A stretch of DNA of 22,339 nucleotides from the IMG/VR virus record IMGVR_UViG_3300024520_000529, positions 1-22,339 of that record. The stretch is one strand, 5' to 3'. Both the position numbers and the translations under genes were made by a program. How positions within the stretch are numbered: position 1 is the first letter of the stretch; each line of letters opens with the position of its first letter. This DNA is from a virus. Below, piece after piece: positions 1,171 to 20,265 of the stretch. Below the pieces are notes generated by a model. That model worked only from the letters and a program-made list of their open reading frames with translations. It did no database searches and was not told the DNA's origin.

Positions 1171-1174
1171 ACTA

Positions 1175-3181: not shown

Positions 3182-3196
3182 TTAGAGGATAACATT

Positions 3197-4033
3197 ATGG
3201 CAGGTGGAGCAACAACAAGAACAGAACCGTGGGATCAGCAAAAGGATTATTTGACTGCTGGATTCAAAGAGGCAGGTAGGCTCTATGGTAAAGGTGTTCC
3301 TAATTATTATCCGGGGGCTACATTAGCAGGGTTCGATCCTAGTCAAACAGCGGCACAACAGGCTGTGTTAGGTTATGCACAAGGTGAAAGACCAGCTGCC
3401 TTACAAGAGGCTGCTCAACAGACAACGCTTGGGCAAATGCAGGGAGCAACCCCATTTACTGGCGGTCAGATGAATGACTTACTTGCTGGAAACGTAAGAA
3501 CAGGCGCGGGAACCCCGTATGGTGATTTGGCTAATATGTATGGTCAACAATACCTTTCCACAATTGGTGCGAATATGCCAGCCGTCAGGCAGCAGATGGT
3601 TGAATACCAGCCCGGCGGAGGGTCAAGGGGAGACATTGCCCAATCGAATGTTATCAGTGCTGCTGGGAAAACACTAGGCCAAAACCTAGCCCAAATGTAT
3701 AGCGGTGCTTATGATACAGCCCAAGCCCAAAGATTCCCTGCCGCTCAAATGAGGCTCTCTCAACAACAAGCAGGACAAGCTGCTTATCCATCTATTATGG
3801 GCGCACCACTAGAGATGTATAAAGCCGTAGGAGATGTAGGAGCGCAGAGAAGAGCTATGAGTCAAGAGGCAATTAACCAAGCTCAACAGAAGTATGCTTA
3901 TCAAGTAGGCGCACCACAGAATGCACTATCTCAATATATGGCTAATATATCAGGAGACTACGGTGGAACCACTACCGAAACTCCTAGCGCACTCTCATCA
4001 TTAGGACAGATTATTGGCATACTGGGGGCTTAA
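3197..4033 (+). CDS. Ejection-type internal virion protein (YPG-motif family)
   Basis: A 278-residue protein behind an AGAGGA ribosome-binding site eight bases before the ATG. The N-terminus shows a pattern widespread in phage proteins next to tail and ejection genes: WDQQKDYLTAGFKEAGRLY followed by YYPGATLAGFDPSQTAAQQ. The middle and C-terminal parts are rich in Gln, Ala and Gly, with long amphipathic stretches, and end in QNALSQYMANISG, another segment typical of this family. There is no signal peptide. By analogy with such proteins, it is probably packaged in the virion and released or assembled into a DNA-transfer conduit during infection; this is inference from family pattern and position upstream of two very large virion-like proteins. 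Confidence 0.6.
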   Translation: MAGGATTRTEPWDQQKDYLTAGFKEAGRLYGKGVPNYYPGATLAGFDPSQTAAQQAVLGYAQGERPAALQEAAQQTTLGQMQGATPFTGGQMNDLLAGNVRTGAGTPYGDLANMYGQQYLSTIGANMPAVRQQMVEYQPGGGSRGDIAQSNVISAAGKTLGQNLAQMYSGAYDTAQAQRFPAAQMRLSQQQAGQAAYPSIMGAPLEMYKAVGDVGAQRRAMSQEAINQAQQKYAYQVGAPQNALSQYMANISGDYGGTTTETPSALSSLGQIIGILGA

Positions 4034-4035
4034 TT

Positions 4036-4437
4036 ATGACATTTAGCTTATTTGGGAATAAAAAACCCCTTGATCCAAAACCACGATGGGAAACCTATGA
4101 CGTCCACGGCCCAGAATTTATTGGCGGCCCGGATGGGAATTTGCAAGAAGATGAAAATGCTGCGTTCCAACAGGCCTTATCTGATTGGAGGGAGATAAAA
4201 AATACAAGGGAAGATAGAGATAACATTTATAAACAAATGGCACAAAAAACTGGGGATACGGCTCAAGTTTACAGGTCAAAAGCCGGTACAAGAGAAGCCC
4301 CTCCCAATATGATGACCTCTCTTTTTCCGTCAAAATTTGGCGTTGCTAGTGCAGCGCCAGTAGATATTCTATCCCCAGAGATAGAGTCTGTTAATGATCT
4401 CTATAGAAAACGCCAAAACATGTTTAGGTATTCATAA
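4036..4437 (+). CDS. Hypothetical phage protein, virion region
   Basis: A 133-residue protein starting two bases after the previous stop, with a GGGGGC stretch upstream as ribosome-binding site. I do not recognise it. It is hydrophilic, with a proline-rich start (KKPLDPKPRWETYDVHGPEF), a charged central helix (ALSDWREIKNTREDRDNIYKQM) and a short C-terminal helix ending RKRQNMFRYS. It shares its TAA with the ATG of the next gene. Its size and position between an ejection-type protein and the 819-aa protein suggest a small virion or assembly component. Confidence 0.5.
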   Translation: MTFSLFGNKKPLDPKPRWETYDVHGPEFIGGPDGNLQEDENAAFQQALSDWREIKNTREDRDNIYKQMAQKTGDTAQVYRSKAGTREAPPNMMTSLFPSKFGVASAAPVDILSPEIESVNDLYRKRQNMFRYS

Positions 4438-6896: not shown

Positions 6897-6902
6897 CTAA
6901 TT

Positions 6903-9692
6903 ATGGCTGAAGAAAATAAAAAAATACCATTAAACATCCCGCTGAAAGATGGAAGCACTCTCACCATCTATGTAACCGCAAGAGGCCCAGACAATAAAGG
7001 AAACATTGTTTCCTTTCATGAGCTTGCTGCCAATCCAGAAACCTCTCAACTGGCTGCTAGAGTAATAGCAGACGGTATGAAGGAGCAAATTGATCTTAGT
7101 CCTGCGGAGGTTGCTACTGGATGGTTAAACAGTATAGCATCAGGTGCATGGCTAGATGCAGCGGAGGAAGTAGGCTCTTCTATCCAAGCATTACCCGCTT
7201 TAACGGGTGGGTGGGATGAGTATACCGACAGAGCGCAACAACTAAGAGATGAGTTTAGGACATCTCAAGGGCTATTCCAAATAGCACATCCAGAGCAAGC
7301 TAACTGGGCGCGTTCTATTGGGTTTACTGTTCCAATGGGGCTTTCTATATTATCTGATCTTATAGCAACAAGGGGTGGAGCTTCTAGGGCTTCATTATCT
7401 AGGGCTGCTACTATGAGAGCCGCCAATCCATACCTCATGGCAACGGAGGGCTTCTTTCCAAACACCATAGAAGCTGCTCTAAAGATGTCTGCTTTAGCAG
7501 GAACAGAAAGCGTTATGACAAATGAGGGCTATCTTAGAGATAGGATAGAGGAGTTGCCCAGTGCATTAAGAGAAGGGGCTGAGTGGGGTGTTATATTAAA
7601 CTTTCTCCTTCATGGAGGCGTAAGATCTATTTCTGGTATTAACAATAGAGTAAAAAAGGTGAAGGATTGGTATGCAGCATCGAGAGATGAAGCAAGAATC
7701 GCAGATATAGAGGGCCAAAGAGTAAGACTGCCTTATCCACCAACAGAGGGAGGGACTACAACACCAGAAGTTTCTCCTTCCAGAGATGTTGCTTTAGATC
7801 TTGTTAATACTACATTAGCAAGTGATGCTCTTCGTGGTAGACCTACAACAGGAGCATCTCCAGCAATTATTTCTGATGCAACCACGGGTACAGGAACAGT
7901 TCATGGGCAAGCCCCTTTTATGCTAGGTGAGTTTGGTGGCCCAAGAACTCAGGTTCTACAAAAACAGTCCGTAAAAGATGATGTTCATTCTGGTCAAGAT
8001 GTTATTGATATGTTAAGAGAGAGGACAAATCTTGAAAATGTAAGAAGGGACGCTGCTTTGCCTCAAACGAATGCAGTAGATGATGTGCTTGCCTCAAGAG
8101 AAGGTAGACTAACTGGAAGGGTAGAAGGTGATGTAGTAGAGAGGCCCGGTGTTCTTGGTTCTGATCCACTTCCACCCGGAGTTGGCGTGGCAGATATCTA
8201 TTACTATAATGCTTATCAACATCCAGATGCTCCACTGTCTGGAGGGAGTGGTGGTCTTGGATTTAAGAATTTCTTTGGGGTGTGGAAGGGGTGGAATGAT
8301 GTATGGAAAAATGCTGTCAATCTTAGGGAACTAAGGATTACAGATAAGAAATCCCAAACACATACTGAAGATGGATTGAGCAACCAACTACCTGATGACT
8401 TCAATCAATTCTTGAGTGGTATTAGATTGGTTCCAAAGACTACACATAAAAGACATGGAACTAAAGTTGGTGTAGGGGCAGAAGCTAGGGTAGTACATGA
8501 GAAATACGATATTGTTCAACAACACTTTAACCCCAAGACTGAGAAGTGGGTTGATGTTGCTGCCGGTAGAAGCCCCAATCCTAAGTGGGAATCAAGACAG
8601 AAGTCTTCTAATGGGGATTGGGTAATTAGACTAAAACCAGAACATAATACTATCTCCTATGAAACCTTGCATGATATGAGGAAGGGATTACAGGCGAAGA
8701 TAAATGCTGCCGAAGCAAAAAATACTGGAGAAACCCCTGAGTTAAACGCTATCTATCGCCAGCTTAACGAAAGGATACACCCTAACAATCCAGACTTTGC
8801 TAAAGCTGATCGCTACCATCATCAGTACCAGAAAATGGTAACAGCATCAGGAGTGGGAACATCTGCGGTAGAATCTTCGCTTATTCCTCTGGAAAGAAGT
8901 GTTGCAAAAATGGGTGGCGATGAAATGAGAGCATACAAAGCAGCGCTTGTACAACAAATACAAAAATTAGGGTTAAGTCCAGAGGATCTAATAAAACCAA
9001 CTGGAAAAAGAATAAGAGATAAACTGCGTACCATGTTTCCAGCCGGTAGGACAGGGGATGATTTGTTTAACCAGATGATAAAAGAATTGTCTGATTCAGC
9101 AAAAATGGCAGAAACTGCCAAAGAAATTAAACCTGCATCTATCAAAGAACAAGCAGATGCCGCTATGCAAAATAAACGAGGATGGGGCAAAACTTTAGCT
9201 CTTTTAGCTAAGGTTCCTGCCTATAAATTTTCCCTGCCTTTTGCTTTGGGAAGAGATATTGTTGAGCAAGCTGGACGCATTGAGAAATTAGCAAGTGTAG
9301 CAACAGCTAGGGAATTGAATGATATCCTTAGTAGATTAAGCGGCCCTCCAGCCGAAAGACAGTTAGCGGAACTTGCATCACGAAAGGCTAGAGTTGAAGG
9401 CAATGACATTGAGGCTAATGCGATAATGGATTTAGTTCAATCTCTTAAAAAGGCTTCAGTACGTTACGGCGCATTACAGCACACTTTTATGGGGGAAAAA
9501 CAGGAAAGACAAAACTACCCCCTAGATACTTCTGATCCAAATGCTGCTTCTCTTAAATCGCTAATGCCGCAACAGCAAAGAGTTTATCCTGCATCGGATG
9601 CTATTAAAGGAGGTAGCTCTATGTTGATGGACGCAGGAGCAAAGTATATATTTAATCCTTTAAAGAGGCGGATTTTTTCAGGCCCAGAATGA
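6903..9692 (+). CDS. Very large putative internal/ejected virion protein (929 aa)
   Basis: The largest ORF of the window, starting six bases after the previous stop. The N-terminal about 60 residues form a small beta-type domain (IPLKDGSTLTIYVTARG). Residues 140-230 hold weakly hydrophobic helices (SIGFTVPMGLSILSDLIA; ALKMSALAGTESV; GVILNFLLHGGVRSI) like the membrane-prone hairpins of ejection proteins. Residues 250-450 are Thr/Pro/Gly-rich and probably extended. Residues 590-660 carry a helical pattern (LHDMRKGLQAKINAAE, then NPDFAKADRYHHQYQKM) that I have seen in large phage internal proteins. The C-terminal third is helical and basic. No peptidoglycan hydrolase motif is visible. It may form part of the DNA-transfer channel; this is inference. 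Confidence 0.5.
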   Translation: MAEENKKIPLNIPLKDGSTLTIYVTARGPDNKGNIVSFHELAANPETSQLAARVIADGMKEQIDLSPAEVATGWLNSIASGAWLDAAEEVGSSIQALPALTGGWDEYTDRAQQLRDEFRTSQGLFQIAHPEQANWARSIGFTVPMGLSILSDLIATRGGASRASLSRAATMRAANPYLMATEGFFPNTIEAALKMSALAGTESVMTNEGYLRDRIEELPSALREGAEWGVILNFLLHGGVRSISGINNRVKKVKDWYAASRDEARIADIEGQRVRLPYPPTEGGTTTPEVSPSRDVALDLVNTTLASDALRGRPTTGASPAIISDATTGTGTVHGQAPFMLGEFGGPRTQVLQKQSVKDDVHSGQDVIDMLRERTNLENVRRDAALPQTNAVDDVLASREGRLTGRVEGDVVERPGVLGSDPLPPGVGVADIYYYNAYQHPDAPLSGGSGGLGFKNFFGVWKGWNDVWKNAVNLRELRITDKKSQTHTEDGLSNQLPDDFNQFLSGIRLVPKTTHKRHGTKVGVGAEARVVHEKYDIVQQHFNPKTEKWVDVAAGRSPNPKWESRQKSSNGDWVIRLKPEHNTISYETLHDMRKGLQAKINAAEAKNTGETPELNAIYRQLNERIHPNNPDFAKADRYHHQYQKMVTASGVGTSAVESSLIPLERSVAKMGGDEMRAYKAALVQQIQKLGLSPEDLIKPTGKRIRDKLRTMFPAGRTGDDLFNQMIKELSDSAKMAETAKEIKPASIKEQADAAMQNKRGWGKTLALLAKVPAYKFSLPFALGRDIVEQAGRIEKLASVATARELNDILSRLSGPPAERQLAELASRKARVEGNDIEANAIMDLVQSLKKASVRYGALQHTFMGEKQERQNYPLDTSDPNAASLKSLMPQQQRVYPASDAIKGGSSMLMDAGAKYIFNPLKRRIFSGPE

Positions 9693-10018
9693 AAAAGATT
9701 TTATCTTTATTATTTCTAATATCTCTACCTGTCTCAGCAGAGATGAGGGTCGTTGAAGTTCCTACAAAAGTAGTATGCTGGGACTCTCTAACAGAGGCTC
9801 TCGATTACCATGCAGGAAAGTTTGGAGAGTATCCAATAGTAAAACTCTATTCCGGTGAGGATGGAGGTGGAATACTACTGGTAAAGCCAGATAAAACCAA
9901 GTGGACATTCCTCGCCTTTAAGCAAGACAAACCAAATAACAGAACAATTGTATGTGCCTTCTTTGAAGGATCTGCATGGGGCGTAGTTAATGTTCCACAG
10001 AATAAAATAGAGCTATGA
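9689..10018 (+). CDS. Exported small phage protein with signal peptide
   Basis: A 109-residue protein whose ATG overlaps the preceding TGA by four bases (ATGA), implying translational coupling. Residues 1-17 are a clear Sec signal peptide: KK, a hydrophobic core ILSLLFLISLPV and an SAE cleavage site. The mature part is about 90 residues with two cysteines (VVCWDSL and IVCAFFEG) that could form a disulfide in the periplasm, and it looks like a mixed alpha/beta domain (GILLVKPDKTKWTFLAFK). I know similar small exported proteins from environmental phages but not their role. Position at the head of the membrane-protein cluster suggests an envelope or lysis-related job. Confidence 0.6.
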   Translation: MKKILSLLFLISLPVSAEMRVVEVPTKVVCWDSLTEALDYHAGKFGEYPIVKLYSGEDGGGILLVKPDKTKWTFLAFKQDKPNNRTIVCAFFEGSAWGVVNVPQNKIEL

Positions 10019-10263
10019 CCAACGGAGTTCAATTCAGCAGGAGCATCTCTCTTGGACATATAATAGCTACTGTAGGTATTATAGTTGCAGGGTTTACCTT
10101 TATCTACGATCTGAGAGAAGCCATCAGCATCCTTCAGTTCAAAGGGGACACAGTTGAACAGAGATTAGATAGGATAGTAGATAGAACAGATTCCCAATTC
10201 GATCAGATTATGGATCATTTGGTTAGGCTTGAGGAAAAGATTGACACACTAAAAGAGGAATAG
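10015..10263 (+). CDS. Small single-span membrane protein with C-terminal coiled coil
   Basis: An 82-residue protein coupled to the previous gene through ATGA. Residues 12-32 (GHIIATVGIIVAGFTFIY) form one membrane segment, followed by a charged heptad region (RLDRIVDRTDSQFDQIMDHLVRLEEKIDTLKEE) that reads as a coiled coil. This topology, a short N-terminal anchor and long soluble coil, is seen in some holin-type and spanin-type phage proteins, so a lysis function is possible; nothing more specific can be seen. It lies between two genes for exported proteins. Confidence 0.55.
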   Translation: MTNGVQFSRSISLGHIIATVGIIVAGFTFIYDLREAISILQFKGDTVEQRLDRIVDRTDSQFDQIMDHLVRLEEKIDTLKEE

Positions 10264-10266
10264 TAA

Positions 10267-10926
10267 ATGCGTAAAATTTTAGCACTGATATTAATGTTAT
10301 CACCACTAGCTGTCTTAGGCGCAGACTTTGGAAAGATAGATGTAAACACAAAGATAAGCCATGAAGACGGTATACATGTAGGCTTAACTGGGAGTGGGAT
10401 ATATAGCTTCGGGTTAGCCGGTGACGGATACACATTTTCATTTAATGGAGAAGACAATGATATGGAACTTGGTGTTTCTGGAGTATATCTCAGCCATTCG
10501 GACTCAAAAAACATAGGGGTTGGTTATGGTGCTGGTGTTGGAATATTTGATGGCGGTGTTCATTATCACTGGATGTCGAACGGAGATCACGTTGTAGGAG
10601 GAGCCACTACGCTCACAGTTGGGGGTGTTGGCCTTGAAACTTCTGCAGATTGGAACCTGAGCGCCTCTGACATCACAGGAAAAGTGGGAACTTCACTAGA
10701 CTTGTGGGGCGCACAAGCATCCGCAGTATCTAAATGGGACATAGATGACCTATCTTATGACGGCTTGGAGCTGGGTGCAGGATATGCTATTCCAGTTGCT
10801 GCCGGTATACATATCACTCCGTCCGTTGGTATGGACTTTGACAGTGACTGGGGGCGTGGCGATGCAACTGCTTCTGTTGCTATTAACTTATCATTTGGCA
10901 GTAATGGAATTCAAACGCTATATTAA
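10267..10926 (+). CDS. Exported beta-rich, porin-like outer-membrane-type protein
   Basis: A 219-residue protein with an AGAGGA ribosome-binding site nine bases upstream. Residues 1-19 form a signal peptide (RKILALILMLSPLAVLGA, cleavage after LGA). The mature part is built of alternating polar/hydrophobic stretches with Gly and aromatic residues at intervals (IYSFGLAGDGYTFSF; GVGYGAGVGIFDGGVHYHW; LELGAGYAIPVAAGIHI), the pattern of transmembrane beta strands. The strand ATASVAINLSF near the end resembles the C-terminal beta-signal of outer-membrane proteins. About 200 residues would allow 8-12 strands. Similar phage genes can alter host surface or block superinfection; whether this one does is inference. 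A bacterial moron origin is possible. Confidence 0.55.
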   Translation: MRKILALILMLSPLAVLGADFGKIDVNTKISHEDGIHVGLTGSGIYSFGLAGDGYTFSFNGEDNDMELGVSGVYLSHSDSKNIGVGYGAGVGIFDGGVHYHWMSNGDHVVGGATTLTVGGVGLETSADWNLSASDITGKVGTSLDLWGAQASAVSKWDIDDLSYDGLELGAGYAIPVAAGIHITPSVGMDFDSDWGRGDATASVAINLSFGSNGIQTLY

Positions 10927-11025
10927 TTTATATTATGCAAATAACATCATCCCCCAGAGAGACGGTTGTCCTTCCTTACTTGTTTTGTCTTTGGTGGTTT
11001 CGGCAACGAACAACACCTAGAAAAA

Positions 11026-11217
11026 ATGTTAGCCTTCCAACACCTTGAAATAGTCAAGGAATCTTATAGACAACATCTATGGTTTACGGTTAAGCTCTCC
11101 TCTGTACTTTTTATACTGTCTATCTGCGCCCTTATTCATGGGCTACTCCCTTCTATACTGTTGGGAACAGTATCAGATAAGATCAAGCATTTAAATGCGG
11201 CACTTAGTGAAAGATGA
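11026..11217 (+). CDS. DUF6356-like small membrane protein
   Basis: The 63-residue form from ATG 11026 matches, by my recollection, the pattern of the DUF6356 family of small bacterial membrane proteins: HLEIVKESYRQHLWFTV followed by a membrane helix (LSSVLFILSICALIHGLLP), then LLGTVSDKIKHLNA. A TTG at 10966 would add 20 residues (FLTCFVFGGFGNEQ), but those do not fit the family N-terminus. Neither start has a strong ribosome-binding site. The gene overlaps the next by four bases (ATGA). The family has no firmly known function; here it sits among other single-span membrane proteins and could contribute to lysis or membrane modification. Confidence 0.6.
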   Translation: MLAFQHLEIVKESYRQHLWFTVKLSSVLFILSICALIHGLLPSILLGTVSDKIKHLNAALSER

Positions 11218-11648
11218 GCGATGCGATTGACGTAAGCGATAAAACTAAATTCGCTATGCCTATACGCAACCTGATATCTCTGGTTGCATCTGTGGCTGTA
11301 GGTGTCTGGGCTTACTTTGGCATTATTGAGCGACTTAACATGATTGAAACTCAAGCAATTTTAGTTCAGGCTGATCTAGTAAAGAACACCGAGTTCAGAA
11401 TTAAATGGCCCAGAGGCGAACTTGGAGCGTTGCCCGCAGATGCAGAACAGTTCATGTTAATTGAACACTTATCGGGGGAGTTTGACAAACTTCTTCACAA
11501 CATAGAAACTGGAAAGGCTCCATTCGACCAGCAACAGGCACTCACTCTGGACTTCTACAAGCAGAGAATAGAAACCCTTGAGGTTAAGGTTGAGACATTA
11601 AAAGATAACGTAGCAAACTTGAAGGCGCACAACGGTAATGATAATTAA
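11214..11648 (+). CDS. Membrane-anchored coiled-coil phage protein (spanin/holin-region)
   Basis: A 144-residue protein starting at an ATGA junction. One membrane span lies at residues 19-38 (LISLVASVAVGVWAYFGI), followed by a helix, then the segment TEFRIKWPRGELGALPADAEQFMLIEHL, whose WPRGxLGxLPADxEQFMLIE pattern I know from many marine phage proteins. The C-terminal 40 residues are a coiled coil (DFYKQRIETLEVKVETLKDNVANLKAH). The anchor and coiled coil with a periplasmic domain recall an inner-membrane spanin, but the WPRG family has no established role that I can name. It is followed by a small protein and a lipoprotein, the expected partner types in a lysis cassette. Confidence 0.6.
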   Translation: MSDAIDVSDKTKFAMPIRNLISLVASVAVGVWAYFGIIERLNMIETQAILVQADLVKNTEFRIKWPRGELGALPADAEQFMLIEHLSGEFDKLLHNIETGKAPFDQQQALTLDFYKQRIETLEVKVETLKDNVANLKAHNGNDN

Positions 11649-11895
11649 AACAATGTTTGTTCTAATGCTATTTGTTAATGGCAGTGTCATTGAGTTTATG
11701 GGACACCATGAGAATGAGAAAGGTGAATGGGTAGAGATGGGCGTACCGGGATGCCTCTCTATGAAGAGAACTCTTTCTAGGAATGGATGGAAAGATAATA
11801 CTGACACCAACACCAGATATGCCTGTGAAAAACATGAGGTTGCAGTAGAAGATGACTGGGAAGGCAGAGAAGTGGTAAGAAAAATCTTGGATTAA
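11638..11895 (+). CDS. Small conserved phage protein with hydrophobic N-terminus and cysteine pair
   Basis: An 85-residue protein overlapping the previous gene by 11 bases. The N-terminus (IIKTMFVLMLFVNGSVIEF) is hydrophobic but breaks into a beta-like VNGSVIEF turn, so it may be either a signal or anchor, or a buried strand. Two cysteines (GCLSMKRTLSRN and RYACEKHEVAVE) frame a charged helix, an arrangement seen in small proteins near lysis genes of environmental phages. The C-terminus is acidic then basic (DDWEGREVVRKILD). A second ATG at codon 6 is an alternative start. Function unknown. Confidence 0.5.
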   Translation: MIIKTMFVLMLFVNGSVIEFMGHHENEKGEWVEMGVPGCLSMKRTLSRNGWKDNTDTNTRYACEKHEVAVEDDWEGREVVRKILD

Positions 11896-11913
11896 CAACT
11901 ATGGAGACAATAA

Positions 11914-12006
11914 ATGGAAATACTCAAAAAGATATGGAAAGAAATCTCAGAAAAACCTTTATGGGCAATCGCTATTTTAATGGTTGCATGGTGGCTCTTT
12001 GCTTAA
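11914..12006 (+). CDS. Hidden 30-aa single-span membrane protein overlapping the lipoprotein gene
   Basis: A short ORF, below usual length cut-offs. GGAG at 11903-11906 lies seven bases before the ATG at 11914, the best ribosome-binding site in this neighbourhood. The product has a basic amphipathic start (EILKKIWKEISEKP) and a C-terminal membrane helix (LWAIAILMVAWWLFA), the topology of small phage membrane proteins. It ends at 12006, inside the start region of the lipoprotein gene in another frame, so translation of the two may be coupled. A holin-like or lysis-regulator role is possible but not shown. Confidence 0.5.
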   Translation: MEILKKIWKEISEKPLWAIAILMVAWWLFA

Positions 12007-12368
12007 TAATCCTGACGGGATGTTCAACGATCAAGAAGGCAGCGATAGTGGGGGCGTCGGCAGGATTGGGTGCGACTGCCGGGAGTGTGATCGCTGGGGG
12101 TGCGATTGCGCCAATAGCGGGGAGCATGATAGCTGCCTCTGCAGCATCTGCCGTGACGAGTACTACGGGTACAGACACCCAGCAATCTCTGGAGATAACG
12201 GGTGATGCCACAATTGTTCAGGAAGCGCCTTCAAATTTCTTTTCATTGTTACAACAGCTTGTGGAGGTTGGCGGATGGTTGCTGATCTTAATCTTTGTAG
12301 TTCCGATGGTGTTGGGATGGATAATTCCGGGGCCACTGACAACTCACAGGAAAAAGAAAAAGAGTTAG
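11961..12368 (+). CDS. Phage lipoprotein with glycine-zipper and C-terminal membrane helix
   Basis: From ATG 11961 the product is 135 residues. A lipoprotein signal (MVALCLIILTGC) ends in the lipobox LTGC, with Cys21 the expected lipidated residue and an Arg at position 4. Next comes a Gly/Ala-rich stretch with GxxxG spacing (IVGASAGLGATAGSVIAGG), like glycine-zipper proteins, then a Thr/Ser linker, a strong helix (WLLILIFVVPMVLGWIIPG) and a basic tail (HRKKKK). The frame is open back to 11901; ATGs at 11901, 11934, 11961 and 11988 are all possible, none with a clear ribosome-binding site, so start choice is uncertain. It overlaps the 30-codon ORF in another frame, reminiscent of Rz/Rz1 nesting. 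An outer-membrane spanin-like role is one possibility; the C-terminal helix argues against a plain Rz1. Confidence 0.6.
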   Translation: MGNRYFNGCMVALCLIILTGCSTIKKAAIVGASAGLGATAGSVIAGGAIAPIAGSMIAASAASAVTSTTGTDTQQSLEITGDATIVQEAPSNFFSLLQQLVEVGGWLLILIFVVPMVLGWIIPGPLTTHRKKKKS

Positions 12369-12616
12369 TCCTCGTAAAGTGGATGGATATCATATCCTAT
12401 TCAGACTGGACTACACACGATAAGATATCATGCCCCATATTTGAAAGTATTGGATGGTTGGTACACAGGGACAGTAAAGAGCTAAAAATAGCCACCACCC
12501 TAGACAGGCATGATGGCTTAGGAGAAAACGATGGTGAACCTACTTACTACGGGATAACTTCTTTTCCTTCTGGTTGCGTTCTTTCTTGCGTTCCTTTACA
12601 TAGTCTTCCAAGCTAA
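12275..12616 (+). CDS. Small conserved phage protein, last rightward gene of the late block
   Basis: A 113-residue product. The start at 12275 is supported by TGGAGGT seven bases upstream, although it overlaps the lipoprotein gene by 94 bases; ATG 12317 is an alternative. The conserved-looking part begins at residue 30: VLVKWMDIISYSDWTTHD, then SIGWLVHRDSKELKIATTL and ITSFPSGCVLSCVPL. I know this layout (a W-x-D start, a xSVGWLxxxDxxxxxxA core and an IPxGCVxxV end) from small phage proteins that look like one beta-barrel domain. Function is unknown. Its 3' end overlaps the convergent gene by 77 bases. Confidence 0.55.
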   Translation: MVADLNLCSSDGVGMDNSGATDNSQEKEKELVLVKWMDIISYSDWTTHDKISCPIFESIGWLVHRDSKELKIATTLDRHDGLGENDGEPTYYGITSFPSGCVLSCVPLHSLPS

Positions 12617-13359: not shown

Positions 13360-14106
13360 TTAGGTCATTATACTTCTTTGGGTTATCGCCCTTATCCCAT
13401 TGTAATATCCATCTCCGTCTAAACCCTCAAGCATGATAATGCCTCTCCACCATTGATACTCAGTGTCTTGACACCATGTTTCGGTGTACTTTGGGTGCGA
13501 GAAACATCCAGCAGATAATCCAAATATCTTTTGACCGTCAGGCTTAGTCTGTTCAGCATGGTTATACAGGTGAGAATGACCCTGTACCGCAGAACAATGC
13601 AACTTTGTAATCAAAGCGTGTCCTATATGTACAGAACTAATCGGTCTTCCTCCTACTCCTGATGTAAAGTAATGACTAAAGGTAATGCCCTGTATCGTTA
13701 CACACCTCTTAAATGGCGTGATCTTCCAGCCAAATCTTTCGTATTGTAAGTCTTCCATTCCAATAGATCCGTCAAGTTCTGGCGTAGTATTAACAGCCCT
13801 TGTTATCCTATCTTCATGGTTCCCTATGCACATATGCAGCTTGGGTTTGTACCCACGTATTCTTTTTATCGGAGCAAATAGTTTTTCTTGTGCATCTATC
13901 ACTGCCTTTACATCCTTGCTATACCTCCTACCCTCAAAGCCTTTGGTTCCCTTATCATAAGAGGACAGGCTAGGCATATCAGCCATGTCCCCTATGCACA
14001 CTATGACTTGAGGTTTTTCCCTTGCTATAAATTTTCCTAATGCAGTAAACCTTTTGTTGTCATAGTTAGGATGAGCGTGTGGATCACCGATAACCAGAAG
14101 ATTCAT
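13360..14106 (-). CDS. Calcineurin-like metallophosphoesterase
   Basis: A 248-residue protein whose ATG overlaps the preceding TAA. All the metal-site motifs of the family are present in order: GDPHAH (Asp8, His10), CIGDMAD (Asp40), CIGNHED (Asn96, His97), FSHYF (His145) and GHSH (His177, His179). Such enzymes hydrolyse phosphomono- or diesters with two metals; phage members are variously phosphatases or nucleases. The protein lacks the long capping and coiled-coil parts of SbcD/Mre11, so it is a compact stand-alone enzyme. Placed amid nucleases, DNA or nucleotide phosphate removal is likely, but the substrate is not predictable from motifs. Confidence 0.85.
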   Translation of the reverse strand: MNLLVIGDPHAHPNYDNKRFTALGKFIAREKPQVIVCIGDMADMPSLSSYDKGTKGFEGRRYSKDVKAVIDAQEKLFAPIKRIRGYKPKLHMCIGNHEDRITRAVNTTPELDGSIGMEDLQYERFGWKITPFKRCVTIQGITFSHYFTSGVGGRPISSVHIGHALITKLHCSAVQGHSHLYNHAEQTKPDGQKIFGLSAGCFSHPKYTETWCQDTEYQWWRGIIMLEGLDGDGYYNGIRAITQRSIMT

Positions 14107-14300
14107 TAGGATTCCCCCTTATAAATTTCAGCTCTGATTATTTCGTAATTTCTTTTACCTTTTTCTTTTCCCGGCTCTTCAAAGCCAAGACCTACGGTAT
14201 TAGGAACCAAGTCTAACACTCGTATTACCAGTGGTTTATCTTTTTCTCCAACAGGATTTATAACTATTGCTTGTTGTACATGTCTACTAAGTCTCAGCAT
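14106..14300 (-). CDS. csrA: CsrA/RsmA-family RNA-binding translational regulator
   Basis: A 64-residue protein with the pattern of CsrA. The start MLRLSRHVQQAIVI matches the first strands (E. coli MLILTRRVGETLMI), IRVLDLVPNTVGLGFEEP matches the core strands ending in the alanine/proline turn, and EIIRAEIY matches the C-terminal strand. Arg56 sits where the RNA-contacting Arg44 of E. coli lies, and Leu4 and Arg6 are also kept. The loops are 10-12 residues longer than in E. coli (VGEKDKPL and GKEKGKRNY). CsrA dimers bind GGA motifs near ribosome-binding sites and repress or stabilise mRNAs. In this phage it may act on host or phage mRNAs during takeover. It overlaps the upstream HTH gene by seven bases. 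Confidence 0.8.
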   Translation of the reverse strand: MLRLSRHVQQAIVINPVGEKDKPLVIRVLDLVPNTVGLGFEEPGKEKGKRNYEIIRAEIYKGES

Positions 14301-14476
14301 CTTAGTCTTTCACCTCGTATGGGATAAGAATAATTGTCCATCTTATGACAGAACCCTCTATTTATTTCGCCTATAAGTGAATTTGAAACCTTAAATTCTT
14401 TAGCTATTTCTTTGAATGTCTTTTCTCGCGCATAAAGTTCAACTATTATTTCATATGCTTTGTCCTCACTTATCAT
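14294..14476 (-). CDS. Small helix-turn-helix protein
   Basis: The coding part starts at ATG 14476 (60 residues); the open frame extends farther up, but that extension is antisense to, and composed unlike, real protein. Residues 1-18 form one helix (EDKAYEIIVELYARE). TFKEIAKEFKVSNSLIGEINRG is a typical helix-turn-helix with Ala/Gly-type turn, and the tail NYSYPIR recalls phage HTH proteins ending in YPIRxxR. It probably binds DNA as a small regulator. No clear ribosome-binding site precedes it, and 46 bases separate it from the exonuclease gene. Its TGA overlaps the csrA ATG, suggesting coupled expression. Confidence 0.6.
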   Translation of the reverse strand: MISEDKAYEIIVELYAREKTFKEIAKEFKVSNSLIGEINRGFCHKMDNYSYPIRGERLRC

Positions 14477-14522
14477 AAAATAACTATTACTAATAACAAA
14501 ACAACAACTATAACTACTTGCA

Positions 14523-15278
14523 TTACTTCCTGTTCTCCAACTCTTTAAGTCGCTTATACCCCACAAGGAATCCACGAAAAGCCATAAAGTTTTCATCGAT
14601 CTCAACAGAAGATCCAGACTCGAACTCCCCTGTCTTTTTATCAAACCTGAGAACATATGCCTTATCTACTGGCTTCCCTCTCATATCCTCTATGGCTTTG
14701 GCATAGGCAGCACATTGTAAATGGTAAGCTGAGTATATAGCCCCAGAAGTTTTGAAGTCTATAACACAGTATTCCCCATTGATTATAGCTGTAGCATCTA
14801 CTGTTCCTGCATATTTATAATCTCTGTGATAAACCTTCTCCTCAACAGTAAGCCACTCAACCTCATTAGATTTAACCCACTCCCTAAAAGCATTGATTGA
14901 GTTCTCTGCTTCCGCCCACTTGGTGGGCATATCGGGTATCTCGCCTCTCCCCAGCTTCCACAGGATTGCTTCTTCACACCACTTATGTACAGCCGTACCC
15001 ACGTTCAAAGCTGATCCCGATGTTTTTCTAAAAGCCCCTCTTATGCCCTTACCCATCTCAGCCTCAGTCATTGATGGGTTTTTACCTAACAGCTTGTGCG
15101 CGTTCATACCAAAGAACTTAGCCCCCTCATTGGCAGCCCACGGCACTAAAGCAGGTTTAGCGATAGAGTCAAGAATGGTGGTTACGGAAGGAGCATACTT
15201 CCCCTCTACGGTATAGTAGTGCTTCTTCTCCTCGAGATTTAATTCGATTACCTCACCGTCATGATATTCTATTTTCAT
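14523..15278 (-). CDS. RecB/Cas4-like PD-(D/E)XK exonuclease
   Basis: A 251-residue protein starting immediately after the preceding TAA. The full motif set of this nuclease group is visible: APSVTTIL near the N-terminus, GTAVHKWCEEA with the metal-binding His98, GTVDATAIINGEYCVIDFKTS with Asp161, Asp174 and Lys176, and YHLQCAAYAKA with the Q188xxxY192 motif of RecB-family nucleases. The Cys cluster of Fe-S Cas4 enzymes was not seen. In phages such proteins act as single-strand or end-processing exonucleases in recombination and replication. The adjoining upstream gene encodes an SSB-like protein, a pairing often found in phage recombination modules. Confidence 0.8.
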   Translation of the reverse strand: MKIEYHDGEVIELNLEEKKHYYTVEGKYAPSVTTILDSIAKPALVPWAANEGAKFFGMNAHKLLGKNPSMTEAEMGKGIRGAFRKTSGSALNVGTAVHKWCEEAILWKLGRGEIPDMPTKWAEAENSINAFREWVKSNEVEWLTVEEKVYHRDYKYAGTVDATAIINGEYCVIDFKTSGAIYSAYHLQCAAYAKAIEDMRGKPVDKAYVLRFDKKTGEFESGSSVEIDENFMAFRGFLVGYKRLKELENRK

Positions 15279-15635
15279 TTAGAAGTCGAAATCCTCGTCA
15301 TCAGCAGTTTTTTGTGGCTTGGAATAGCCCTGACCGCTATCTTGTGGCTTCGAGAATTTAAGAGAAAAGTATGGTTTCCCATTTTTGTCTTCATTCTTCC
15401 AAGCCTTAACTTTCCACTCTTCCCCATTAATCAAACCCTTTCCATCAAGCAACGGGTCTGTATCCTTGCTCCTATATTTGTTCTTAAAAATATTTATAGA
15501 GTTATCTTTAGGTTCCCATTCCATTTTCTTTCTTTCCTCTTGTTGCTGTTGGTTCAATAAATCGTTGTGATGGCTAGCCCCGCTAGCATCATCAAATTCT
15601 CTCATCCATCCATCTTCATCCGAAGGTGCTGACAT
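15279..15635 (-). CDS. Putative single-stranded DNA-binding protein with acidic tail
   Basis: ATG 15635 overlaps the preceding TAA by one base (TAATG) and has GTAGGAT upstream, so I prefer it to the ATG at 15677, giving 118 residues. The N-terminal 40 residues are Gln/Asp-rich and disordered. The core (SINIFKNKYRSKDTDP; GEEWKVKAWKNEDKNGKP; YFSLKFSKP) reads as a small OB-like or DUF736-like beta domain. The protein ends in an acidic, aromatic tail, DDEDFDF, similar in kind to the DDDIPF-type tip of bacterial SSB used to recruit partner proteins. Position directly before the exonuclease supports an SSB or recombination-accessory role, but the domain match is loose. Confidence 0.55.
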   Translation of the reverse strand: MSAPSDEDGWMREFDDASGASHHNDLLNQQQQEERKKMEWEPKDNSINIFKNKYRSKDTDPLLDGKGLINGEEWKVKAWKNEDKNGKPYFSLKFSKPQDSGQGYSKPQKTADDEDFDF

Positions 15636-15958
15636 TATCCTACCCCTGCCCTGCTGTTTGCCTGTAGTGTTCTCCATACTTCAATCTTAGCCTCTGCGAT
15701 TGTAAATAAATGTTTTAATCGTGTCTCTTCTTCAACAGAAATTTTAAGACCCTCCAAGACCCCATCGTAATCATCGTGAGCAGAAGCCCATGCTTTCTTG
15801 TATGAATCTGTTCCTTCTGGTGCTGCAAGCATAAGTATAGAATGTTTAACTTTCTTATAGTCGTCTAAATATTTTCTGTTAGCTGTAGCTTGAGAGAGTT
15901 TGGTAACGTTCTCCATCATCCAATGTAATGCTTTCTCTACTGTCTGCTCATCAGTCAT
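15635..15958 (-). CDS. Conserved phage hypothetical protein (WRT-motif helical family)
   Basis: ATG 15958 is preceded by AGGAC and gives 107 residues; an upstream ATG at 15982 lacks a ribosome-binding site. The protein is helical and shows a pattern I know from many phages: LSQATANRKYLDDYKKVKHSI, an LMLAAPEGTDSYKKAWASAHDDY segment, GLKISVEEETRLKHL and the C-terminal signature KIEVWRTLQANSRA. In those phages the family sits with SSB, RecB-like exonuclease or recombinase genes, as here. Its function has not been shown to my knowledge; an accessory role in DNA recombination or replication is the likely inference. Confidence 0.65.
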   Translation of the reverse strand: MTDEQTVEKALHWMMENVTKLSQATANRKYLDDYKKVKHSILMLAAPEGTDSYKKAWASAHDDYDGVLEGLKISVEEETRLKHLFTIAEAKIEVWRTLQANSRAGVG

Positions 15959-16145
15959 TAGTCTTGTCCTGTATACGGCCATCCCATATCGTAACTAATT
16001 CGGTGGTCACTTTTTGTAATTTCCTAATCGCCTTTTCATTATACCCGATCATTGACCCACCTCCCGTTTTGCAAATAAGTGGTTTATCCGATGTTCTATC
16101 AGAAACCCAAAGATACCACTTCTTAACTGATTGCTCTTCAGTCAT
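15951..16145 (-). CDS. Small hypothetical phage protein
   Basis: A 64-residue protein starting at an ATGA junction with the HNH gene and overlapping the next gene by eight bases. The N-terminal part may be a beta hairpin (KKWYLWVSDRTSDKPLICKTG), followed by an amphipathic helix (NEKAIRKLQKVTTELVTIWD). No family is recognised. Tight coupling on both sides shows it belongs to the replication operon. Confidence 0.5.
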   Translation of the reverse strand: MTEEQSVKKWYLWVSDRTSDKPLICKTGGGSMIGYNEKAIRKLQKVTTELVTIWDGRIQDKTND

Positions 16146-16510
16146 AAAATTGGAACCTCATAAGGATGATACTCAGCAGATATTACTCCTGTCTTCATGG
16201 CTTTGTCAAGAGTTTGAAGAATGAAAAAGAATTGGCTGTCCATCAACTCTCGATTTCCTTGGTGCATTTCTCCATGACATTCAAAGCACAGAGGCATAGT
16301 GAATATATCTGAAGCCTTAATTCCTGTTCCGCCAGACAGTGGTGTTCCCCTTCCTTTTAAGTGATGTGCTACCACAGTGTCATTCTTGACGTAACAGGCA
16401 CAGCAAGGCAACTCAGAGACAAACTTGATATAGTCTTTGCTTTTCCATCTGGTATGTTTGGGTATGGTTCCCTTTGCATACATGTGTCTTTTCTTTTCCT
16501 TAGATTTCAC
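16142..16510 (-). CDS. HNH-type nuclease (YbcO/DUF968-like)
   Basis: A 122-residue product from GTG 16510, chosen because AGGAG lies eight bases upstream; ATG at 16483 is a weaker alternative. Visible features are DYIKFVSELPCCACYVK with the first zinc Cys pair (Cys36/Cys39), AHHLKGRGTPLSGGTGIKASD with the His of the HNH site (His49/His50), and MPLCFECHGEMHQG with Cys75, Cys78, His79 and His83. This arrangement matches small phage HNH nucleases of the YbcO or DUF968 sort, thought to act on recombination intermediates or single strands. It overlaps the reductase gene by 11 bases, so the two are co-transcribed. Confidence 0.75.
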   Translation of the reverse strand: MKSKEKKRHMYAKGTIPKHTRWKSKDYIKFVSELPCCACYVKNDTVVAHHLKGRGTPLSGGTGIKASDIFTMPLCFECHGEMHQGNRELMDSQFFFILQTLDKAMKTGVISAEYHPYEVPIL

Positions 16511-18347
16511 AGGCGTCTCCTGTACAAGCTAGTTCCTGACTTGATGTGGTATTGTCATCGCTTTCTTGGAAAGATTCCCAATCAATCTCTTTTGGTTTAG
16601 GAAAATTAGCATATTCAGATGCGGTTATTTCTTCGTAGGGAGCCTGTTGGTAAACGTGGTGGTCATCCGCTTTAGGTAAGAAGCTAACCCCACTAAGGAT
16701 ATCAAAATTCTTGTAACACCACGCTCCTACATCGAGCCATTCATCCTCTTCAACATAGATCGTTACTGAGGGTTTGTGTTCGCACCAATATAGTGCAAAT
16801 TTCTTCCATGTCTCAAGGTGGGATATAGCATCTACCTTATCTTTTGTAATGGCTTTGGGGTGCGCCTTCACAGCAAAAGAGAATACCAGAGACTCTAAAT
16901 TAGCGTTATCTTCCTCGTATGGGATTCCTGCTTCTATTAAAGCTGTGTTCAAGGGGTCTTTCTTGTCTTGTCTCACTCTGCGGATGTAGTGTTTCCCAAA
17001 GGAAGGGTGTAAACCACTCCCTGCTACTCCAGTTAATTGAGATACCGTCCCGGAAGGCTTAACACAGGTCACAGCTACAGACTGTGGTATCTTTAATTTC
17101 TTAGCCCACTGTAGATTAGTAGCTACCGCATGATCTTTCCACGCAGTAAGTTGCTCAGGAGAGGCGTTTAGAACCACAGGGCAGTCATAAACCCCAGTGA
17201 AACTAACCCCTAATAGTCTTTCTTCTTCAGCGTTCTTTCTCCAAATGGGTCTAACGTACCTAAAGTTAGTTAAGGTAGATTGGAAAGTTCCCAGAATAGT
17301 AGCATCAGCCACCTTGCGAGACACATCATCTATGGTGTCCGTAGGACGCAGTACGCACTCAGAAAGGTTGCAAGTTTCTTGAGAAACAAGATTTATTTCC
17401 GAACAAGGATTAGTTCCGAATTCTTGGGTGTTATCTCTTCTCTCGGGAGCCATGTCTTGGACAGCTTTTCGATTGAATATTCCCCTTTCCCCGCTCTTTG
17501 ATTCATACAGGGAAATCCACTCACGCATGAAGATACCGATGTCAGGCTTCTCCGTGTAGCACACAGAGTTATTAGCTAAGGCTCTCTGTCCGTTCTCTAC
17601 CCACCACTGACCCATCTTAGCCCTCTGCATACGCTCGTCTGTGAGGTTGCTCAGGCTCAATTCGGCTGATCTACGTACACCCCCTACTACCACAGCCTCC
17701 CCATTGAAGCACAGGAGATCATGGCACTCTAAGCTGTTTAGCTTCCGTCCAGAAGCATTTCTGAATACACGAATATAGTTGTTAAATAGCTTAATCAGAG
17801 GTTCGCTGCCACTTGCTCTTCCCCCGAAAACCTTAAGCCTAGCACCAGACGGTCGAATACGGCTGTAATCTATCTTGGGTACTAGCCCTTGATACAATAG
17901 ACTGACCAGTTCCCTGAGTCCAGAAGCCCACCCTATTTTAGAATCCCTTACAACTATTGTGGTATCTGTATCATGGAACTCATTCGCTATCTCTGGAAGT
18001 TTACCAATGTACTGTCTTTCCACAGAGAACCCAACTCCAGTACCACAGAGAAGGACGTACAGGTTTTCATCGAAAGCCCTAACATGATCCACAGCAATGT
18101 AAGAACAATTGTATCCTGCCATTTCATCACGATCTAATGCAATTCCTGCTGTCATTAAACTCCGCATAGAAGGCATGACATTCATCTGAAGAATTTCTTC
18201 CTCTAGGTGGTCTGGGAAATTAGGAAAACGTCCTTTCATAAACGAGACATACCTACCCACGGTTTCTTCCCAAGACTCCCTGCGCTTGTGTTCGTCAAGA
18301 TAACGAGCGTACCTTGATTTGTGAATAAATTGCTGATACTGATTCAT
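16500..18347 (-). CDS. nrdJ: Class II (adenosylcobalamin-dependent) ribonucleoside-triphosphate reductase
   Basis: The enzyme makes deoxyribonucleotides without a partner radical protein, using B12. Counting from ATG 18347 (615 residues), the catalytic set is present: GYNCSY (Cys81), NPCSE (Asn313, Cys315 thiyl radical site, Glu317), ETCNLSE (Cys326, eleven residues on, as in the Lactobacillus enzyme), GTGVGFSVE, and the C-terminal C-x4-C pair (CTGDAC) that re-reduces the active site. The chain is shorter than the Lactobacillus monomeric enzyme. ATG 18359 would add four residues but has no ribosome-binding site, while AGGAAAAG precedes ATG 18347. The N-terminal FIHKSRYARY and RRESWEETVGRY are typical of the monomeric triphosphate type. 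No intein is seen. The cell must supply or import cobalamin. Confidence 0.92.
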   Translation of the reverse strand: MNQYQQFIHKSRYARYLDEHKRRESWEETVGRYVSFMKGRFPNFPDHLEEEILQMNVMPSMRSLMTAGIALDRDEMAGYNCSYIAVDHVRAFDENLYVLLCGTGVGFSVERQYIGKLPEIANEFHDTDTTIVVRDSKIGWASGLRELVSLLYQGLVPKIDYSRIRPSGARLKVFGGRASGSEPLIKLFNNYIRVFRNASGRKLNSLECHDLLCFNGEAVVVGGVRRSAELSLSNLTDERMQRAKMGQWWVENGQRALANNSVCYTEKPDIGIFMREWISLYESKSGERGIFNRKAVQDMAPERRDNTQEFGTNPCSEINLVSQETCNLSECVLRPTDTIDDVSRKVADATILGTFQSTLTNFRYVRPIWRKNAEEERLLGVSFTGVYDCPVVLNASPEQLTAWKDHAVATNLQWAKKLKIPQSVAVTCVKPSGTVSQLTGVAGSGLHPSFGKHYIRRVRQDKKDPLNTALIEAGIPYEEDNANLESLVFSFAVKAHPKAITKDKVDAISHLETWKKFALYWCEHKPSVTIYVEEDEWLDVGAWCYKNFDILSGVSFLPKADDHHVYQQAPYEEITASEYANFPKPKEIDWESFQESDDNTTSSQELACTGDACEI

Positions 18348-18477
18348 TCTTTTCCTCATAAGTACGGTTAATTCAGATGTGGTTGTGTGGTTGGATGTGG
18401 TTAGTCATACAAGGGTATGCTCCGATAGGAAGAACGTTTATAGAGCCTCGGAGCAACAACTCTCACTACAGGGGGAG
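18348..18477 (-). promoter_or_regulatory. Leader of the reductase gene: inverted repeat and three AACCACA repeats
   Basis: This is the only gap over 100 bases inside the leftward operon. Read on the minus strand it holds a perfect 7-base inverted repeat (GCTCCGA at 18454-18448, TCGGAGC at 18425-18419), directly followed by a small hairpin (ATAC CCTT GTAT, 18418-18407) and then three AACCACA copies between 18402 and 18378 just before the gene. No cobalamin-riboswitch box, NrdR box or good promoter could be recognised. It may be a structured leader, an operator region or a processing site. Confidence 0.4.
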
Positions 18478-18837
18478 TTAACCTGTTCCACCATAATTAA
18501 AATCTTCTTTGTTCACTGCTTCCTTTAGTTCTTTTTCATCATAATAAGACAATATAGCTACCATGTCGGCTAGATCATCGAAGTTTATCAACGCATACAT
18601 TTTGGAATTACTCTTCTCTGTCATAACGACAACTGGAATTTGATCTTCAGTTGAGCCTCTCTCTGCTTGAGAATACCAATCCTTTAGGTATTGAGGCAGC
18701 TTATTTCGATACTTGCACTCTATACCCATATGCGGATGATCTACATCGAGATCAGTTTTTCTATCTGAAACGCTTATCCTAGTACCTCCACATTTTTTTG
18801 CAACTCGCCTCTCAAACGCCTTCCAGTTTTTGTCCAT
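18478..18837 (-). CDS. Holliday-junction-resolvase-like PD-(D/E)XK nuclease
   Basis: A 119-residue protein behind a very strong ribosome-binding site (GGAGGGG). Motifs: NWKAFERRVAKKCGGTR with Glu9, SDRKTDLDVDHPHMGIECKYR with Asp31 and E40-C-K42, then KLPQYLKDWYSQAE. This order (helix with Glu, Gly-x-Arg turn, Asp, ExK, LPxWLxxWxxQA) is that of phage and archaeal-type resolvase-fold nucleases. It probably cuts branched DNA during recombination or before packaging. It overlaps the ATPase gene by 26 bases, so both belong to one transcript. Confidence 0.7.
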   Translation of the reverse strand: MDKNWKAFERRVAKKCGGTRISVSDRKTDLDVDHPHMGIECKYRNKLPQYLKDWYSQAERGSTEDQIPVVVMTEKSNSKMYALINFDDLADMVAILSYYDEKELKEAVNKEDFNYGGTG

Positions 18838-19639
18838 CTTCCCCTCCGTCTTCGTAGTCGTCTGGAATAATTGGATACGTTGATTGTTTAGCGGTTAAAA
18901 GATTCATAGATTCAAGATCCATCCACAGATCAATTGCACATTCTGCCATGTCCCAATGTCGCGCTTTTGAGATTTCAAACGAAACATCTGGATCTTCTAT
19001 GTCTTCGTTGTAGTATCTTTGGAGAAGAATTACGTTATCAACCCTATCTGTTAGTTCCCCTGCGCCTCTAATAGAGAATCTATCTATTTTATCCTTTATT
19101 GAGAATGACTTACGTGCATGAGCCACAAGAATAATATGGCACTCCAAATCCCTTGCTAGATCAGCTAACCTGCACACCACATCTTTTTGTGCGCTGTAGT
19201 CATCATTTTTAATTCCTGATATTGTCATGAGGGAATCAACCATAATGATATCTGTATGGTAATGGTGGATAGCATAACGAATCCCTGCTTCCAGTGTGTC
19301 TAAATCCATCGAGCCTTCTTTGTCAAAGAAGTAGAGTTTATCGTTGCTCCATCGGTTGAAATTCAATCCAAAGTCTAATTCTGGTTTAACGACTCCAGAA
19401 GCCATGCGCCACATTCTTATTAACTGAGAACGTACAGACATCTCTAAGGAAACTGAAAGTACCTTAGCCCCTTGAGTCATACATTTAAGGGCAATTTGTC
19501 CTAGAACTAGACTTTTTCCTGACGAATTTATTCCTGCTAAGATGCTACATTCGCCTGTTCTGAGGCGAAACTTGCTGTCAAGAATAGACCACGGCAGTTT
19601 ATACCCAGACTTATCTTCACCAAGAACGTAATAATCCAT
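18812..19639 (-). CDS. DnaB/RecA-fold ATPase, probable replicative helicase; true N-terminus lies upstream
   Basis: From ATG 19639 the product is 275 residues. Walker A is GINSSGKS (36-43), a SLEM segment holds the catalytic Glu66, Walker B is IIMVD (Asp135), and VAHARK and RGAGELTDRVDNVILL complete the RecA-like helicase core. The GECSILAGINSSGKSLVLGQ stretch matches phage DnaB-type helicases. ATG 19639 has no ribosome-binding site, and the frame stays open upstream for 39 protein-like codons (NVLDIPNEEVHLTPEIL, then APYLRIEADHSIQSASNY) with no ATG, GTG or TTG until it meets the preceding gene at an A7 tract. A -1 frameshift fusion, an ATA start or a sequence error could supply the N-terminus. 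It likely unwinds DNA at the fork. Confidence 0.8.
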   Translation of the reverse strand: MDYYVLGEDKSGYKLPWSILDSKFRLRTGECSILAGINSSGKSLVLGQIALKCMTQGAKVLSVSLEMSVRSQLIRMWRMASGVVKPELDFGLNFNRWSNDKLYFFDKEGSMDLDTLEAGIRYAIHHYHTDIIMVDSLMTISGIKNDDYSAQKDVVCRLADLARDLECHIILVAHARKSFSIKDKIDRFSIRGAGELTDRVDNVILLQRYYNEDIEDPDVSFEISKARHWDMAECAIDLWMDLESMNLLTAKQSTYPIIPDDYEDGGEDGQKLEGV

Positions 19640-19752
19640 AACATCTTTGGTGTAATTGCTGGCACTCTGTATAGAGTGATCCGCTTCAATACGCAGATAC
19701 GGAGCCAGAATTTCTGGTGTTAAGTGAACTTCTTCGTTTGGAATGTCAAGGA

Positions 19753-19765
19753 CGTTTATTTTTTT
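19753..19765 (-). other. A AAA AAA TAA slippery sequence: candidate programmed -1 frameshift site
   Basis: On the minus strand the preceding gene ends ACA AAA AAA TAA, that is, a perfect X XXY YYZ heptamer (A AAA AAA) in the zero frame with the stop right behind it. A slip of one base back continues into ATA AAC GTC, which is exactly the open upstream frame of the ATPase. GGGGA lies just upstream of the heptamer. A short CCAGA AAT TCTGG hairpin lies roughly 45 bases downstream. The same site would also be prone to homopolymer sequencing error. Confidence 0.45.
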
Positions 19766-20253
19766 GTTCCCCAGTAGCCTGAATCCATTAAATCTAACAA
19801 CCTTCCGTGCTTATCCCTCTTTCCGCTCCCCGGTTTCCAAAATGGATTGTATTGTTTTTCCTTTTGCACATAAATGAATCTCCAATTAACCACAGCATAC
19901 CCCAAACCATGAGCGTAAATCATTGGGGATGGATTGTCAACCCCCTCGCTGAAATTATTCACGGTAGCACTAAGAACCATGTTCACAGGCACACGACGCT
20001 CATCCCTTATTTCGTTTTTGTCGTTCATACCCTGTACGTTCAAATACACAGCAAAAGCCTGAGCCACACAATCCTTTTTAATTTCTTGTGGCACTCCAGA
20101 CAGAAGTCGCATTCTATGGATATTATTCAGAATCCTATTTAGGAATGTTTCCTTGTCAAACCATCCCGTTTTTTTGCGAGTCACAATAGCTTCTTTTTCG
20201 ATGTTACTCACAACCACGACTAGCTTTTTTATTGTTTTGACTGATCTAAGCAT
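19756..20253 (-). CDS. Unknown protein upstream of the helicase, possible N-terminal part of a frameshift fusion
   Basis: A 165-residue protein from ATG 20253 (a TTG two codons earlier is also open). I do not recognise a family. The start is basic and hydrophobic (LRSVKTIKKLVVVVSNIEKEAIV), followed by helices (KETFLNRILNNIHRMRLLSG; IKKDCVAQAFAVYLNV), then a beta-type region (PSPMIYAHGLGYAVVNWRFIYVQ) and a basic, aromatic end (QYNPFWKPGSGKRDKHGR; MDSGYWGTKK). No zinc ribbon or Toprim motif is seen, so it is not an obvious primase. The gene ends at the A7 tract in the frame next to that of the ATPase. It is the first leftward gene after the divergent promoter region. Confidence 0.55.
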   Translation of the reverse strand: MLRSVKTIKKLVVVVSNIEKEAIVTRKKTGWFDKETFLNRILNNIHRMRLLSGVPQEIKKDCVAQAFAVYLNVQGMNDKNEIRDERRVPVNMVLSATVNNFSEGVDNPSPMIYAHGLGYAVVNWRFIYVQKEKQYNPFWKPGSGKRDKHGRLLDLMDSGYWGTKK

Positions 20254-20265
20254 CCTCAAATTATA
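20254..20265 (-). promoter_or_regulatory. Possible leftward -10 element (TATAAT) for the replication operon
   Basis: A consensus TATAAT lies on the minus strand at 20265-20260, six bases before ATG 20253. Transcription from it would begin about at the ATG, giving a leaderless message. TTGACG is present farther up but about 26 bases away, too far for a normal -35. It is a weak call. Confidence 0.3.

Follow-up and report, generated by a model that had tools for sequence, protein, structure and literature searches.

Overlapping gene pairs that share ATGA are translationally coupled (PMC6728339). Near-cognate codons can also serve as starts: AUA codons with strong Shine-Dalgarno (SD) sequences reach about 10–30% of AUG in Staphylococcus aureus (PMC13009471), and for CUG in E. 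coli, the value is about 0.86% (PMC11497404). For −1 frameshifting, Sharma et al. considered four criteria: whether the motif is efficient, whether it is conserved, whether the sequence around it is conserved, and whether it is flanked by stimulators (PMC4066793). A7 is a proven frameshift heptamer in IS elements (PMC4066793), and a 0-frame stop is believed to stand right behind the shift site of some bacterial dnaX genes (PMC5009743). Work with frameshift reporters in E. coli also raised the suspicion that G-rich motifs serve as SDs for an AUA that lies 7 nt downstream in the −1 frame (PMC4066793), which is also the geometry of the locus that we describe here.

This locus is in a virus record of 22,339 bases (IMGVR_UViG_3300024520_000529), which we will call the window. 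Gene A (19756–20253, minus strand; 165 amino acids) is an open reading frame from ATG 20253, with the in-frame TTG 20259 as a possible alternative start. Its 3' end reads, in frame, TAC TGG GGA ACA AAA AAA TAA. Thus an A AAA AAA heptamer (19759–19765, minus strand) is in phase with gene A and is followed by the TAA stop (19756–19758, minus strand). The helicase frame is exactly −1 relative to gene A and extends to 18812 (minus strand). It has 57 open codons, without any ATG, GTG, or TTG, ahead of its first standard start, ATG 19639 (19637–19639, minus strand). An earlier note on this DNA had described both the in-phase heptamer with its stop and a helicase whose only standard start lacks an SD. 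We confirmed both observations; the SD duplex for ATG 19639 is estimated at −0.9 kcal/mol.

The same A7-TAA junction, with the heptamer in phase, is present in contigs L002 and L003, whose helicase is about 3% divergent from that of the window, which makes an indel error improbable. (The two contigs hardly differ from one another, and a single sample may be the source of both; we found only two distinct haplotypes in the window's group.) A DNA search with the exact junction matched the L002 and L003 contigs only. The earlier note had suggested looking in close relatives for eight or six A's and one continuous reading frame, and no fused reading frame was found.

The downstream gene encodes a DnaB_C or Twinkle-like RecA ATPase. 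Counted from the ATA discussed below, the coding region is 18812–19759 (minus strand; 315 amino acids), and it has a RecA core, a DnaB_C profile, and a Walker A motif (GINSSGKS). It matches DnaB_C (PF03796, 1.1e-14, which exceeds the Pfam cut-off), the primase/helicase family PHROG 239 (4.8e-40), and Twinkle in PDB (9e-15). The DnaB-like motor that had been read from the sequence is thus borne out. The quality of the structural model for the helicase was too poor for use.

The helicase does not begin at ATG 19639. The codons upstream of this ATG (LTPEILAPYLRIEADHSIQ..) align with the N-terminus of related helicases, and they include a conserved N-terminal segment (LTPEILAPYLRIEADHSIQSASNYTKDV; 19640–19723, minus strand). 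The relatives' starts are 3–14 residues ahead of a conserved motif, LTPE.LAPYL, which places them about 33–45 codons upstream of the position of ATG 19639, and the window's helicase has this motif as well as the residues that follow it. At the position of ATG 19639, six relatives (L004 and L006–L010) have CTC or CTG. Given the conserved upstream codons, the CTC or CTG in these relatives, and the lack of an SD, we rejected ATG 19639 as the start. The homologues start upstream of its equivalent and share similarity with the upstream codons, which are protein-coding.

Comparing the helicases of the window and L002, 31 codons differ, with 27 synonymous and 4 nonsynonymous changes, which implies purifying selection (binomial p ~6e-11 against 70% nonsynonymous). 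The first 40 codons have just two changes, both synonymous. Together, the aligned N-terminus and the synonymous-only changes indicate that the helicase is translated from upstream of ATG 19639 and is maintained by selection. Because there is no ordinary start, yet the helicase is kept intact by selection, a non-standard event must be needed to make it. On this point the earlier note was right.

To see how related viruses make this helicase, we applied profiles of gene A and of the helicase to all of the collected loci, which include 81 distinct helicases. Close relatives of the window's helicase are encoded by 20 viral contigs. Relatives from cultured phages all have below 60% identity, and no relative was found in prokaryote genomes. 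Among the 81 helicases, only those of the window and L002 (with L003) have no ATG, GTG, or TTG ahead of the conserved motif; all of those outside the window's group have their own standard start. No reading frame among the collected loci fits both profiles, so there is no fused relative. The earlier note had asked if homologues form a single reading frame or conserve the heptamer; instead, they are separate genes with their own starts.

In nearly all of the loci that reach far enough, gene A is upstream of the helicase, and there are two layouts. In one layout, gene A overlaps the helicase directly, in the −1 register. Helicases in this layout start with TTG and the SD AGAGGA (L056 and L065), with TTG (L082 and L094), with GTG (L081), or with ATG (L068, L072, L096, L171, and L179). 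Because direct −1 overlaps recur in several clades with ordinary starts, the −1 register is itself no sign of frameshifting. So, although the earlier note correctly placed the helicase at exactly −1 relative to gene A, ordinary stop/start overlaps give the same register, and no frameshift is needed to account for it. These relatives have true overlaps with standard starts, while in the window, the stop is co-located with a putative start, in ATAA.

In the other layout, gene A is followed by a stretch of DNA; among the nearest relatives of the window, this stretch contains a small gene B. Gene B is in frame A+1 and overlaps the end of gene A; it lies between gene A and the helicase in L004, L011, L023–L027, and others, and is absent from the window's group. 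In some loci, such as L011, gene B has no obvious start of its own. The tree places the window and L002 as sister to L004, inside the clade that has gene B. This nesting indicates that the window's lineage has lost gene B and has acquired a new junction.

We propose that the helicase is probably made as a separate protein of 315 amino acids, by termination-reinitiation at AUA, or possibly CUG; we infer both the use of these codons and the coupling to gene A. Gene A and the helicase would then form a stop/start-overlapping pair, like those of many relatives, but with a non-standard start codon. Within ATAA (19756–19759, minus strand), the TAA stop of gene A overlaps the ATA, with the geometry of an ATGA overlap. 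The overlapping AUA would be used for initiation by ribosomes that have just terminated at the UAA of gene A, or by fresh 30S subunits for which those ribosomes open the GGGGAA site, and the helicase would be made at a reduced level. A CUG that is 15 nt upstream would be the second choice. The junction might have a simple origin, as ATGA could become ATAA by one transition that preserves the stop of gene A.

The SD-like GGGGAA (19767–19772, minus strand) is 7 nt before the ATA and 1 nt before A7; if just the GGGG is considered, these distances are 9 nt and 3 nt. Its duplex with the anti-SD is estimated at −5.5 kcal/mol, as compared to −5.8 for the TTG starts of relatives. In a scan of 30 codons ahead of the conserved motif, no near-cognate codon but ATA 19759 had an SD this strong (−5.5 kcal/mol, at 7 nt); CTG 19774 has an SD of −3.1 kcal/mol, and ATT 19744 has no SD. 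The locus thus combines a near-cognate ATA, an SD within 5–9 nt, and the lack of a standard start, as expected for non-AUG initiation. The GGGG arises from a glycine codon (GGA) after the conserved Tyr-Trp in gene A, where nearly all relatives have valine, alanine, or another residue (valine and alanine are the commonest); none of the relatives in the alignment has this glycine. The ATA is 12 codons from LTPE, which matches the length of the tail from the ATG in L025, although the tail sequences are unlike. The pattern of ATA and SD is weak evidence by itself, because AAA TAA always holds a −1 ATA and an SD this good is found at about 12% of random sites. Also, AUA and CUG are poor starts, and initiation at AUA does not explain why an in-phase A7 is at this exact place, which has a probability of roughly 1–15% by chance.

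The rival that the earlier note put forward is a programmed −1 frameshift at A AAA AAA UAA, which would yield a fusion of gene A and the helicase (480 amino acids) beside free A (165 amino acids). A ribosome on the last two lysines of gene A would slip back one base, evade the UAA, and enter the helicase. This does explain the in-phase heptamer directly ahead of the 0-frame stop, with an open −1 frame that passes through the heptamer and has no standard start of its own. The heptamer is kept in the 3%-divergent haplotype, the sites in IS elements and in dnaX offer precedents, and gene A is a plausible fusion partner because it adjoins the helicase. The placement of the heptamer also favors a frameshift. 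There are four in-phase A AAA AAR heptamers among the window's 6,836 codons, and only the one at the junction opens a long −1 frame, as the other three run for 4–10 codons in that frame. (One of the three, A AAA AAG at 20224–20230, minus strand, is within gene A and serves as an internal control; its −1 frame closes after 6 codons, and it is unlikely to be functional.) The chance of such a heptamer in an overlap of 17–18 codons is about 0.01 if codons are counted blindly, while for the residues Thr-Lys-Lys, the window's codon usage would give ACA AAA AAA with a chance of about 0.15. On the other hand, none of the 81 helicases is fused, and within the family, a heptamer near the end of gene A is found only in the window, L002, and L003. 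In a distant clade, L072 and L073 have an independent A AAA AAA that is likewise in phase, about 14 codons ahead of where gene A ends, and there A7 coexists, within the same overlap, with a normal ATG for the helicase. Downstream of the heptamer, we found no stimulatory hairpin beyond chance (z of about −0.5 to −1 over 50 nt, 48th percentile), using nested folds only and comparing to shuffles and to the rest of the strand. Upstream, no SD-type stimulator was found at about 10–14 nt: the GGGG is 3 nt from the heptamer, whereas in dnaX the spacing of the stimulator is roughly 10 nt. A_AAA_AAA is also far less prone to shifting than A_AAA_AAG (PMC5009743), and in E. coli, a motif that has no stimulator yields no more than about 10 times the background of 0.055% (PMC4066793). 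Among the criteria of Sharma et al., the junction has the motif only. A programmed frameshift that gives a fused protein is thus not supported by the relatives, by conservation of the heptamer, or by a stimulatory structure, and we consider it a lesser, though real, possibility. In its strongest form, a −1 frameshift without a classical stimulator would be the sole source of helicase, whose own start has been lost, and every subunit would carry the protein of gene A as an N-terminal domain; we consider this, too, a lesser though real possibility. If true, it would be a recently evolved recoding that replaced ordinary initiation.

Within non-standard initiation, whose probability includes this variant, the helicase might instead start at CUG (CTG 19772–19774, minus strand), but we consider this improbable. 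This CTG has the same position, relative to the conserved Tyr-Trp of gene A, as the UUG start of L056 and L065 (TAT TGG → TAC TGG), and TTG with the SD AGAGGA is the likely start at that position in L056–L058, L065, and L066. But any TAY TGG yields TTG or CTG there, so the match in position is cheap; other relatives are nearer than the L056 group; and the SD of the CTG is weak. Alternatively, transcriptional slippage on the A7 run at the junction could produce some mRNAs with eight A's, in which gene A and the helicase are in one frame. Slippage on a run of A's does express dnaX in Thermus, but documented runs have about nine A's (PMC5009743) and A7 is short, which makes this very unlikely. 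A homopolymer at the junction and an odd gene structure might also hint at an error in the sequence or at a helicase pseudogene. This is the least likely explanation, and we rejected it given the second haplotype with the same junction and the strong purifying selection that acts on the helicase, its first 40 codons included. Overall, we favor non-standard initiation over a −1 frameshift, and AUA over CUG: the comparative evidence favors separate synthesis, while the placement of A7 favors the frameshift. By the values cited above, neither route is efficient in E. coli. Surveys of frame transitions of the type performed by Georg show that coupling does not exclude recoding and that the two can interchange among homologues (PMC3711429), so reinitiation and frameshifting may both contribute.

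Gene A encodes an uncharacterized protein, which is conserved immediately upstream of the helicases of this family (we aligned 46 members). AlphaFold2 places helices at residues 3–29, 34–50, and 56–74, with high pLDDT, so the N-terminal part is predicted to be three helices; the C-terminal part of the model is unreliable. Past the conserved Tyr-Trp, the C-terminus is often basic (KK, KR, or RK). The family adjoins the helicase in marine-type viral contigs. Gene A had no match in PHROG or among PDB sequences, a Foldseek search found nothing significant, and it was not found in cultured phages. Because of its constant place beside the helicase, its position suggests that the product is a partner of the helicase, such as a loader or an accessory factor.

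In the window, a TATAAT box is 6 nt ahead of the ATG of gene A (20253–20265, minus strand). Because of this short distance, the mRNA of gene A could be nearly leaderless in the window. In relatives (noted at about 640–665 in L002), the TATAAT is followed by a proper SD, as in aaggaggtacttatATG.

Elsewhere in the window, a block for nucleotide metabolism (13360–18837, minus strand) encodes a metallophosphoesterase, an exonuclease, a possible single-stranded DNA-binding protein, a ribonucleotide reductase (16500–18359), and a RusA-like resolvase (18478–18837). The plus-strand genes that we tested (511–12616), which include proteins of 819 and 929 amino acids, had no match in PHROG.

Whichever explanation is correct, this locus illustrates a way for an essential gene to survive the loss of its start codon. 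Gene finders that are limited to ATG, GTG, and TTG would start the helicase at ATG 19639 and drop 40 conserved residues. If initiation at AUA is confirmed, the window would offer a rare case of natural non-AUG initiation within a gene overlap, and an in-phase heptamer together with a missing start would be insufficient to call a frameshift. If the frameshift is confirmed, recoding at this site would be young, with ordinary ancestors that are still visible.

How does the locus compare to known systems? The helicase shares a RecA-like core with Twinkle and phage T7-type helicases and with DnaB. Unlike those proteins, it is short, it has no N-terminal domain, and it is encoded beside a separate uncharacterized gene. 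The junction resembles the transposases of IS1 and IS3 and bacterial dnaX (PMC4066793, PMC5009743) in its −1 register, its A-rich in-phase heptamer, and a second frame without a standard start, but it lacks their conserved heptamer, stimulatory structure, and fused homologues. It would share a near-cognate start that is backed by an SD with ccpN, citZ, infC, and cvfC1 of S. aureus, which start at AUA or AUU. Those starts have strong extended SDs (PMC13009471), whereas the window has a moderate SD (−5.5 kcal/mol) inside a gene overlap. As in termination-reinitiation at ATGA overlaps (PMC6728339), the window has a four-base overlap of the stop with the putative start, a −1 register, and an SD that lies in the upstream gene, at its 3' end; the difference is that the putative start would be ATA, within ATAA, instead of ATG.
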